In this document: one piece after another, positions 41,507-46,665 of the stretch
How positions within the stretch are numbered: the first letter of the stretch is position 1
How the letters are laid out: the number at the start of each line of letters is the position of its first letter
Source: Hymenochaete sp. R1
Lineage: Eukaryota; Basidiomycota; Agaricomycetes; Hymenochaetales; Hymenochaetaceae
DNA length: 64,000 bases
Assembly (NCBI GenBank): GCA_019400425.1
Contig: JAFREE010000065.1
Coordinates: 62,001-126,000 of the forward strand
Reading direction: 5' to 3'
The notes under the pieces: generated by a model
Databases searched by the model: none
What the model saw: the letters and a program-made list of their open reading frames with translations, nothing else
What the model was told of the DNA's origin: nothing
Translations under genes and position numbers: made by a program

Positions 41507-42678
41507 ATGTCAATAACACCAAATCTTCGTGCTTCTGCTCGCGCAACATATCGCTTGCTCTTCAGAACAGCTTCAAGTACTTTCCAAGGTGCGCTTTCCC
41601 CAAGCTAATCTAGCCCAAACGACTCAACCCCATTTTTGGGTGCAGGAGACCAGCGAGTTTTAAGTGGTATGTCATCTAATTGAATATCTCTTCTTTTGTA
41701 TTTAGCATTGTCTACTAGCTTTTCAGGAGAAAATCAGGAATGATTTCCGAGAAGGGCGCTCCATAATGGACCCGAAGGCGTACGCCTCCCGCATCCAACT
41801 TGGCCAGGAGGTCGCAGACATCTTACGGCGAAATATCGTCCAAGCGCAAAAAATGGAGGCTCCCTCGTCACAGGTGCAGGATCGATCAGGGTCGGATAGA
41901 GAAGTCTGGAGTGAGTTATTGTTATGCCGGGTATCGTAAACAGTCATGGGCTAACTTTCCTTTCCAGGTTTGAGGATAACGAAAGATACGGAGCTTGGTT
42001 CAAACGAATCAATTAGAGGGGCCATGAAGAACAAGAGCTCTCAGAAGGTCACTGGAGGTTGCTGTTCGGTGGCGTGAGTTCCATCCTTCGTGCCGTAGGT
42101 GGTTGGCTTCCCCCGTTTATTCACTATGTATCATCTTCGTACATGGATGACACTCCTTGCGTCGTTTCCCTCTAAATCAGCGAGACCACGAAAACTGAAT
42201 CTGATGCTGATGCTGAATCATCCGAGAGTCCGCCAATTTCGTCAAAGCGCAAAATGAATTTCTCCGCCTTGAAACGCGCCAGCCAAGGACGAGTGAAACC
42301 TGAACTCGACGAGAACGACCTTGAGGAATCATTCGTACGAGGCAGCGGTCCTGGTGGTCAATCGATCAACAAGACCTCCAATAATGTCCAATTGTTGCAC
42401 AAGCCGACTGGCATTCGCGTAAATTGTCAGGAGACGCGATCTCTCCTAACCAACAGAATGATCGCAAGGAAAAATCTTCTCGAGAAGGCATGTTTGGACG
42501 CGATGAGAGTGGTATGCAGCTAAGTCGTTTTTTTGTCTAGCTTGACCATATAGCGAATCCGGGACTGTCGAAGGAGGGAATGAAACGAGCCAAACAGATT
42601 GAACGCGAACGACGTCGAAGGAAGAAAGCAAAGAAAAGGGCTCAGCTAGGTTCTGTTGGAGAACAATCATATGATTAG
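41507..42678 (+). CDS. MZM1: LYR-motif Mzm1-like factor joined to a GGQ (RF-1 domain) protein
   Basis: Exons: 41507-41588, 41646-41666, 41719-41910, 41968-42073, 42181-42487, 42541-42678 (281 aa if all are spliced). The first 134 residues are Mzm1/LYRM7-like, a mitochondrial chaperone for the Rieske Fe-S protein of complex [23 protein letters not shown] near residues 14-33, [32 protein letters not shown], and [15 protein letters not shown]. The second part has [17 protein letters not shown] (GGQ at 192-194), [18 protein letters not shown] and a Lys/Arg tail, as in mitochondrial peptide-release/rescue factors (mtRF-R/C12orf65, yeast Rso55). Reading through at 42074 ends the Mzm1 part with stop TGA 42075-42077; splicing GC|GTGAGT removes it and joins both in frame. 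Alternatively two genes, the second starting at ATG 42254 (123 aa). The intron at 42488 is GC-AG. Confidence 0.75.
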
Positions 42679-43732: not shown

Positions 43733-44839
43733 GGACACGGCACGTAGACAAGGCTGAGGAGACAAAATGTCGACTTCCATAGAGGGCAATATAAAGAAGC
43801 TTCGGTGGACGAAGGGAGGACAAAGGCGTTGAGAAAGGTGGTCGTACAAAGACGAAGATGGGTCACGGAGCTTTCGGTTGCATGGGTGCCTGCCTGCCGC
43901 CGGTAACGCGTGCCAGTGACTATGACTCCGGACTCTGACTGCCATAGATTCACAGAAGCGTCAATTCGGGTTCTTTCACAAGCGATAAGCTGATAATTTC
44001 TCGAGGCTCCCATTTGTCTCAGAGGGCCTCGACGCAAAGGACTATGGGGATATATGCGCCTTACAACTTTAAGGCGACTGAACCGACACATAACGGGGAT
44101 ACTTTTTAGCTCTTAATACTCACACTTGTAGGCTAATTTCACTTTTGATAACCCAGCAAAGCGTTTGCAATCATAACACGGACAAACTAGGATGAAGTCG
44201 AGCTGCAGCTGTGCGGCGCCGATATGAAAGGTAGCATTATACGTGATTACTTCAGCCCGGCTTTCCCCGACGGCAGAGGTCTGTTTTTCTCCAAGAATTC
44301 AGCCGTTTTTGGTATCATGTCCTCGGAGAGTAGAGTCAGACTTACCTTGGGTCATGTCATGCTGCGCACAACTTGTTTCAAAATAATTACAAATGGGATG
44401 GAACTTGACTCACGGCGCGCCGACAAAGCATATCGATGTACAGAGGTATACAGAAATGGTGTACACCGCACTGACTCAGTTTTGGCGAGGAGATGGTAAA
44501 GTTTCTGTTAAGGATAATGATTCATTCCTCTCGTCTTCACGTCCCGGTCCAGGAAACACCCGAAAAGGACTGGGAGACGCGTTTATTAACTTTATATGGA
44601 AAGACGCGTTTGCATCACGTGCGTAGTGCACAAACAATGACAAGCGCGATTCGTGAAATCGAGATGGCAACTGGACCGACTGCGAACGCGGCGGGTACGT
44701 CGAGAAGTGCATCGTGCCCTTTCTTCTTTCCCTCGTCACCGTTTTCCCTTTTCACTCCCGCTGCTGCTGCGTGAAGAATGTCCCAAGGAGGATTGCATTC
44801 TCTAGCTACGATCATCAAACGGTGAATCTGATCTTTCTC
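43733..44839. other. Intergenic region upstream of CAP
   Basis: 1.1 kb with two short plus-strand frames (44224-44499, 44393-44626) that overlap each other and resemble nothing I know. Contains the divergent promoters of its neighbours. Confidence 0.45.
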
Positions 44840-46665
44840 ATGGACCATTCCCTAAGCCCTGATATTTTCGAACTCGTCCTCAGGCTTGAAGCCGCTACTT
44901 CTCGACTCGAGGATCTTGCTGTTACGCAGAATGGTTCTCCAATATCTGTGCCCCAGGCACCGAACTCGCATGCAGGAGCCCCTCCACCTCCACCACCTCC
45001 ACCGCCCTTACAGTCTTTCGAGGATGTTCCTAAAAGTGTAGAAGCTTTTGACGAGAATGTCATCTCCACGAAGCTTAAGCCATTTATTGAGCTTACCAAG
45101 TCTTTTACATCTCCGCTTGTCGTGGATCAGGTGCGTAATGATATATCGTTTATTAAAGTAATAACTCACAAGCAAGTGCCAGGTCGGACATGTAGAGAAG
45201 GTCTTTAGCGGCCTTCGCGCCATCGTTCTTGCGGCAGCTACATGCAGTAAACCAGATCAGGTAGCTTTCGCGTCTTTACAGGAGCCCACTTCGAAAGAAG
45301 TTTCGGCCGTCATGAGCTTTCCGGATAACAATAGGAAGGAAAGGACATGGTACAATCACTTGATGTTTATTTCAGAGGGTATCCCAAGCGTTGGCTGGAT
45401 AAATATTGTATGTTCGTTTCGGCCTCACCAAGGAAAATCCAATTCACTTACGACCTCTGTCTACCCGTAGGAACCAAAGCCAGGTCCTCACGTTGCCCAG
45501 ATGAAGGAGAGTGCTGAGTTTTATGGCAACAAGATCATCAAAGAATTCAAGCAGAGGTACGCGCTTGGTTCCTTCGCTTCAACACCAGCTCACAATCTTC
45601 GCAAGCGAACCGAAGCACGTTGAATGGGTGCGCGCTTGGATTTCCTTGTTGGAAGAACAGCGCAAATATGTCATGGAATTCCATACCACTGGCCTGACAT
45701 GGAATGCAAAGGTAACTCACCTCATTACATGATTGTTAATTTTACCGACTAACTATTCGCCAGGGCATCCCTGTAAGTCAGTACTCAGCAGCTGTTCCTG
45801 CTACGGGTGCCCCGCCTCCACCGCCACCTCCTCCTTCGAGCGGGTTTGCTTCTGGCGCACCATCCTCAGGTATTGGAGCAGTCTTCTCCGAGCTCAACCG
45901 CGGAAGCGAAATAACGAAGGGCTTGCGTAAGGTCGAAAAGTCGGAAATGACCCATAAGAACCCAGAACTTCGTGCATCTAGTTCCGTGCCCGCTGCTCCT
46001 GCCTCTTCTTCACCGACGGCGAAGAAGCCATCGAGGCCGGCAAAACCGGCTGCTTTAGCTGGGAAAAAGCCAGCCAAAATTGCTCTTGAGGGCACGAAGT
46101 GGATCATTGTAAGTTTCTTTGCATTCCATCCCAGATTCTTAGACTGCAGAACTCATGTCTGGACAGGAATTCCAAGAGAATGAATCGGGGTTGATTGTCG
46201 ATAACGCTGAATTAAATCATACCGTCAACCTCTTTGGTTGCAAAAATTCAACCGTGCAAGTCAAAGGCAAAGTCAATGCGGTGAACATTGGTATTTCTTT
46301 CCCATTCCATTCAATGCCCGATATAGGGAGCTCACTGTAATCCAGTGAACTGCACCAAGACCTCTGTGCTTGTCGATTCAGTCGTATCAAGTGTATCCGT
46401 TACGAACTCGCCTTCGTTTGCGGTCCAAATCACGGGCTCGGCACCGACTATTCTTCTCGATTCTACCGACTCGGGTCAAATCTACTTGTCCAGGTCTTGT
46501 CTTGGCGCGGAAATCACGACGGCGAAGTGCAGTGCGATCAATGTGAGCTTGCCCGTCGAGGGTGAAGAAGATGGAGTATTTGTAGAGCGGGCAGTGCCAG
46601 AAATGATGAGAACGGTGGTGAAGGATGGAAAGCTCATTACGAGCATAGTGGAACACTCCGCTTGA
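44840..46665 (+). CDS. SRV2: Adenylyl cyclase-associated protein (CAP/Srv2)
   Basis: Recycles ADP-actin monomers with cofilin and, in fungi, links Ras to adenylyl cyclase. Exons: 44840-45130, 45183-45407, 45471-45556, 45606-45711, 45764-46108, 46167-46290, 46346-46665 (498 aa). The order is typical: N-terminal oligomerisation segment (VLRLEAATSRLEDLA), helical folded domain (FIELTKSFTSPLVVDQVGHVE to TGLTWNAKGIPVSQYS), proline runs of eight to nine residues before the helical domain (44987-45005) and after it (near 45815), then the WH2-like and CARP beta-helix domains (PAKIALEGTKWIIEFQ, CKNSTVQVKGKVNAV, VNCTKTSVLV, GQIYLSRSCLGAEITTAKCS). The GTAAGT inside exon 5 at 45773 is read as coding because the next acceptor would be too near. 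High confidence. Confidence 0.93.

Follow-up and report, generated by a model that had tools for sequence, protein, structure and literature searches.

In yeast and human, the LYR protein Mzm1 (human LYRM7) and the GGQ protein Pth3 (also Rso55; human C12orf65 or mtRF-R) are encoded by separate genes. In Hymenochaete sp. R1, a single gene carries a relative of each of these families, one per half; it lies at positions 41507-42678, forward strand, of the 64,000-nucleotide (nt) stretch analysed here (contig JAFREE010000065.1, positions 62,001 to 126,000), referred to below as the window. Pth3, the yeast homologue of C12orf65, is listed as a gene of its own and rescues stalled mitoribosomes (PMC7940416). 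The Schizosaccharomyces pombe tandem protein Rsm22-Cox11 likewise unites a mitoribosome factor and a respiratory-chain assembly factor in one precursor, and it is cut after import (PMC4381221, PMC12375894). Its proteins are different ones, the ribosome factor comes first, and its cleavage has been shown, whereas the Hymenochaete fusion is known from sequence. A fusion of LYRM4 with RF-1/C12orf65, predicted in five insect species (Angerer 2015, PMC4381221), has the same order of an N-terminal LYR protein followed by a C12orf65-type GGQ domain, but it involves LYRM4 (ISD11) instead of LYRM7/Mzm1 and consists of unreviewed predictions; the same source cautions that many such joins may be annotation errors. 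Since it belongs to another lineage, the insect fusion, if real, would have arisen independently. Additional domains occur in about 7% of LYR proteins, with Lyrm7 among the subfamilies that have most, and the passages of that source on the subject do not name the present fusion (PMC11293456).

The preliminary description of this locus knew of no Mzm1-GGQ fusion. This held for the open-licence literature searched, in which no paper describing an Mzm1-C12orf65 fusion was found, but not for the databases, where many entries hold it, and the insect LYRM4-C12orf65 case is in print. The Agaricomycete entries (e.g., Fomitiporia P0002 and Abortiporus P0075) contain the same two-domain protein, known as names only, either "RF-1 domain-containing protein" or "Mitochondrial zinc maintenance protein 1", and usually with RF-1 as the sole Pfam domain. 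We conclude that the locus is very probably one gene for a single mitochondrial precursor, Mzm1(LYRM7)-linker-mtRF-R(C12orf65/Pth3), that arose once within Agaricomycetes and has been kept since. With two mitochondrial proteins in one reading frame, it has the composition of a tandem precursor.

The fused reading of the locus is real. Joining the six exons (Table 1) gives 846 nt of open frame and a protein of 281 amino acids (aa). When the junction intron is retained, a 134-aa protein ending GCG TGA results, and when it is spliced the frame continues for 147 residues more; rebuilding the frame reproduced exactly the stop codon in the donor, the 42073/42181 exon junction and both lengths as first described. 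The acceptor ending at 42180 preserves the frame, and use of either of two further in-frame AG acceptors, with the exon starting at 42229 or 42283, would do no more than shorten the linker. Intron 5 is best read as GC-AG, AAG/GCATGT...CTAG, because LLEK/LD..NPGLSK then matches the homologue consensus. An alternative GT donor at 42512 also leaves the frame open and adds 8 residues.

A search with the spliced protein yielded 397 matches, the best 120 of which were examined and, together with this protein, form the 121 alignment rows counted below. Both halves are covered in 120 of the 120 listed homologues, which answers the earlier proposal to look for proteins with both domains. The rows with broad coverage are 46-61% identical to the query over most of its length. 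Judged by genus name, we take the listed homologues all to be Agaricomycetes. They include the Hymenochaetales-type genera Fomitiporia, Pyrrhoderma, Phellopilus and Sanghuangporus, and presumably represent, beside that order, Agaricales, Boletales, Polyporales, Russulales and Gloeophyllales as well as Phallomycetidae. The fusion of Coprinopsis cinerea is P0043. Because it aligns over both halves with each listed homologue, the spliced fusion exceeds chance, and on this alignment it is evidently not an oddity of one genome.

Table 1. Features of the fused gene (positions in the window)
Feature	Position	Strand	Remarks
Exon 1	41507..41588	+	Mzm1/LYRM7 half begins; TYR (LYR-like) motif; xYR inside first 60 residues in 120/121 rows
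Exon 2, 21 nt	41646..41666	+	Required for frame and for GDQRVLSAF, cf. homologue consensus GDxxVLxAF
Exon 3, Mzm1 helices 2-3	41719..41910	+	Helices in AlphaFold2 model of homologue P0002
Exon 4	41968..42073	+	Mzm1 C-terminal signature (RITKDT.L..N, common to P0123) and first part of linker; ends GC, phase 2
Junction intron 4, 107 nt	42074..42180	+	Phase 2, GTGAGT...CAG; if retained, GCG TGA at 42072-42077
Exon 5	42181..42487	+	Acidic/serine-rich linker, helix, GGQ core; RF-1 E=4e-22
ATG suggested earlier as separate GGQ start	42254..42256	+	Met not conserved there
Intron 5, 53 nt	42488..42540	+	GC-AG; yields LLEK/LD like homologue consensus
Exon 6	42541..42678	+	End of GGQ domain, basic tail, TAG stop

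The identity first proposed for both parts, Mzm1/LYRM7 and a GGQ domain, was borne out by domain searches. Residues 1 to about 110 resemble Mzm1/LYRM7, with a Pfam Complex1_LYR match to the spliced protein at E=5e-5 (23.6 bits, just below the cut-off of 24.8). The xYR motif is AYR in 98 rows and TYR or VYR in 11 each, and TF.GD is found in 110 of 121. A change of L to A in the LYR motif is a LYRM7 trait (PMC11293456), and the homologues have this form, with A or another hydrophobic residue for L, then Phe; the protein's own TYR fits loosely, Thr not being hydrophobic. Kinship extends beyond the LYR helices: P0123 (search E 1.7e-5), a protein whose source name begins "Complex III assembly fact", has the RITKDT.L..N end in common with P0002 in a pairwise alignment. 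Pfam misses most of these Mzm1 halves, which is why the proteins are filed as RF-1 domain-containing: PF05347 was precomputed on 4 of the 120 listed homologues, and Complex1_LYR was found at E<=0.01 in 11 of the 48 members scanned. A search for stand-alone Mzm1 gave 3 proteins from just 8 candidates and hence says little on separate Mzm1 genes.

In the other half, Pfam found RF-1 alone, at residues 174-267 and above its cut-off, and the codon-recognition domains are absent. The GGQ motif is present in all 121 rows; in four of them G.GPGGQ is incomplete, apparently through errors in the gene models. The closest structures to the GGQ half are 7a5h_C (E 2.7e-21) and 2rsm_A (1.5e-18), followed by RF2 (1e-10) and ICT1 (0.29). 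By sequence and structure matches it is thus assigned to the C12orf65/mtRF-R (yeast Pth3/Rso55) type, nearer C12orf65 than ICT1, RF1 or RF2.

An exon-by-exon search of the assembly (27.8 megabases, 336 contigs) revealed no second Mzm1 copy; the Mzm1 query matched this locus alone across the genome. With the GGQ query, the next hit after this locus itself was an RF2-like gene on C201 (E 9.7e-12); C30, C1 and C296 gave weak matches, and the genome search turned up no second GGQ copy of mtRF-R type. Four genes carry PF00472: this one and those on C201, C30 and C296. The C30 gene is ArfB/ICT1-like (41.7 bits, under its cut-off), and that on C296 was judged RF1-like by eye. The fused gene thus appears to be the genome's only source of Mzm1 and of mtRF-R. 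The C201 gene (L011 877-1719) is a second full-type release factor beside the RF1-, ICT1- and C12orf65-like genes; it reaches 316 bits with the prfB model, under the cut-off of 370, and has an SPF-like tripeptide. It could be contamination. An RF2 in a fungal nucleus bears on mitochondrial stop codon usage.

The AlphaFold2 model of homologue P0002, built from 48 sequences, has a mean predicted local distance difference test (pLDDT) score of 78 and a predicted template modelling (pTM) score of 0.48. In it, the LYR part forms a bundle of three helices plus a small hairpin; residues from about 118 to 167, with pLDDT below 50, precede a short helix at 176-184, after which come the GGQ domain and, last, a long basic helix. 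A pTM this low is consistent with two domains that lack a fixed orientation, and the model suggests that the two modules fold independently, joined by a disordered and poorly conserved linker. From the Mzm1 end to the GGQ domain the linker measures 48 to 203 residues (118 of 121 rows measurable). Just before the junction, at about residues 129-130 here, 14 of the 121 rows, most of them from relatives of this species, have a Cys-Cys pair (P0001-P0008, P0011, P0026, P0034, P0054, P0058 and this protein).

The idea put forward earlier, that the GGQ part relies on the Mzm1 end for import, is supported by the first 30 residues, with 4 basic and 1 acidic and a helical moment of 0.52. The first 30 residues from the ATG at 42254 have 5 basic, 6 acidic and a moment of 0.20, and with this charge balance and low moment no obvious import signal is present there. 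Among the unfused GGQ relatives, several start with a presequence-like segment themselves: rows P0198, P0204, P0234 and P0237 have no acidic and 3-5 basic residues in the first 30, and P0217 has 5 basic and 2 acidic.

Taken in sequence, the junction intron would normally be spliced out and the in-frame TGA removed with it, after which the Mzm1 end would take the precursor into the matrix. Judged by their families, the LYR module would there steady the Rieske protein before its entry into complex III, and the GGQ module would free mitoribosomes that have stalled. The modules would then stay tethered or be cut apart after import, as in S. pombe Rsm22-Cox11.

Unfused relatives bear on the origin of the fusion. 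A GGQ-only search gave 249 proteins, and the best 120, most from short metagenome contigs, were examined. Among these, 23 rows have an organism name: 8 with Mzm1 pieces, 7 from Ceratobasidium/Rhizoctonia with GGQ alone, 3 likewise from Naganishia, Rhodosporidiobolus and Cystobasidium, and 5 further GGQ-only models. In a GGQ tree built from 27 selected fused rows and 9 separate ones (200 bootstrap trees), the fused rows stood on one side of a branch; when two long rows were left out, its support rose to 97/92 and 98% of bootstrap trees. This is consistent with a single origin of the fusion within Agaricomycetes, probably after the Ceratobasidium/Rhizoctonia branch, with Serendipita unsettled.

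Several observations weigh against this reading of a single, anciently fused gene. With all rows, the fused-only branch is weak (88/74, 88% of bootstrap trees). The five GGQ-only models come from other Agaricomycetes (Tephrocybe P0130, Peniophora P0155, Taiwanofungus P0180, Serendipita P0187 and Chiua P0200); some look cut or seem to begin inside an intron, and the N-terminus of the Serendipita model is unlike Mzm1. Four of the seven Ceratobasidium/Rhizoctonia models (P0201, P0210, P0219 and P0227) start without a clear presequence. The counts cover the best matches, so that 277 proteins of the spliced-protein search and 129 of the GGQ-only search stand outside them. Finally, the junction intron has 107 nt where the other four have 52-57 nt, and the word in it most like a branch site, ATGAC, located 32 nt before its end, is weaker than the CTAAT/CTAAC found in introns 1-3. 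This makes it the least typical of the four GT-AG introns.

Matrix peptidases might always cut the linker, in which case the mature cell would hold two ordinary proteins and the fusion would be a packaging device. We rate this at slightly under an even chance. Rsm22-Cox11 is a precedent, and the disordered linker of variable length would suit it. In 65 of 121 rows, R-x-[aromatic]-[S/T] stands before the GGQ module, resembling the R-3 presequence cleavage motif (Icp55/MPP), but the Arg is missing in the other 56, this protein included. The aromatic residue and the Ser are each present in 120 of 121 rows, their pair opens the confidently modelled helix H176-184 of P0002, and the unfused Naganishia and Ceratobasidium proteins contain similar sequence internally. 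For the last two reasons the motif was not counted as evidence of cleavage, and the site may be structural. Cleavage is compatible with the single-precursor reading, as it concerns the last step only. Decidedly less probable is a functional tether, in which a permanent Mzm1-mtRF-R would tie the rescue of mitoribosomes to the maturation of complex III. Given two apparent joins of a LYR protein to C12orf65, with LYRM7 in Agaricomycetes and LYRM4 in insects, a real and conserved LYR/mtRF-R partnership may exist at the mitoribosome and escape notice in organisms with separate genes.

The preliminary description proposed that one locus makes either Mzm1 alone or the fusion, with retention of the junction intron giving the 134-aa protein, splicing giving the fusion and the ratio set by splicing. 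In the parallel case of MOCS1A-MOCS1B, two reading frames at one locus can be connected by splicing (Gray and Nicholls 2000, title; PMC5817353), but here there is no sign that the unspliced product is used. The proposal draws on the in-frame TGA at the donor, on a retained form that looks like a normal Mzm1 and on the length and weaker branch site of the intron. However, in phase 2 a GTGAGT donor necessarily yields NNG-TGA and a GTAAGT donor NNG-TAA, which happens in neither phase 0 nor phase 1; the junction intron is the sole phase-2 intron among the gene's five. Since every such donor has a stop, the stop codon is a by-product of phase-2 GTGAGT and not above chance. In three Suillus models (P0077, P0096 and P0109) the linker has about 18 residues absent from P0101 and P0113, which appear to be the junction intron read in frame with no stop. 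The open reading frames (ORFs) P0239 and P0232 look alike, with the junction intron seemingly read through. Intron phase in relatives was judged from protein insertions alone, and a pattern scan of viral contigs for the relatives' genomic DNA gave 8 matches, none from a relative. Retention in Suillus and P0232 would therefore lengthen the fusion and release no Mzm1, so that Mzm1 alone through retention would not be a conserved design. The three Suillus linkers also contain KGGQR.

Two Mzm1 readings ending in the linker could favour two products: P0121 (131 aa, 966-nt contig) is intron-free and stops there, as does P0122 (104 aa). Both are contig fragments and may represent partial or unspliced sequence. 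GGQ ORFs that start just upstream of the linker helix, some sharing the start MFIIS..., are present on many short metagenome contigs of about 900-1000 nt. These and the linker-ending Mzm1 ORFs may come from DNA that is unspliced, from transcripts that keep an intron or from separate starts. The donor stop as a designed switch was rejected as a conserved feature on the phase-2 arithmetic and the Suillus and P0232 readings, and with all listed homologues fused we hold two regulated products to be improbable; low-level retention of the junction intron may occur in this species. Least credible of all is that prediction misjoined two neighbouring genes, the GGQ gene starting at ATG 42254 or within the intron: a few annotators' models are GGQ-only and this ATG would give 123 aa with the whole GGQ domain, but the listed homologues are joined throughout, of 121 rows, 26 have Met at that position, 65 Arg and 30 another residue, and the import signal is lacking as described above.

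Downstream in the window, at 44657-45470, lies the start of a CAP (cyclase-associated protein) gene (CAP_N-CM E 3.1e-10, CAP_N E 4.6e-17).

The locus thus represents a conserved and apparently undescribed mitochondrial tandem gene, in which a respiratory-chain assembly factor and a mitoribosome rescue factor would have been kept as one gene across mushroom-forming fungi. One gene for both would force their equal production. Because domain scans detect just the RF-1 half of most entries, a survey might conclude in error that Mzm1 has been lost from Agaricomycetes. The fusion may serve as packaging, or it may point to a link between the two functions, and the predicted insect parallel makes such a link testable.
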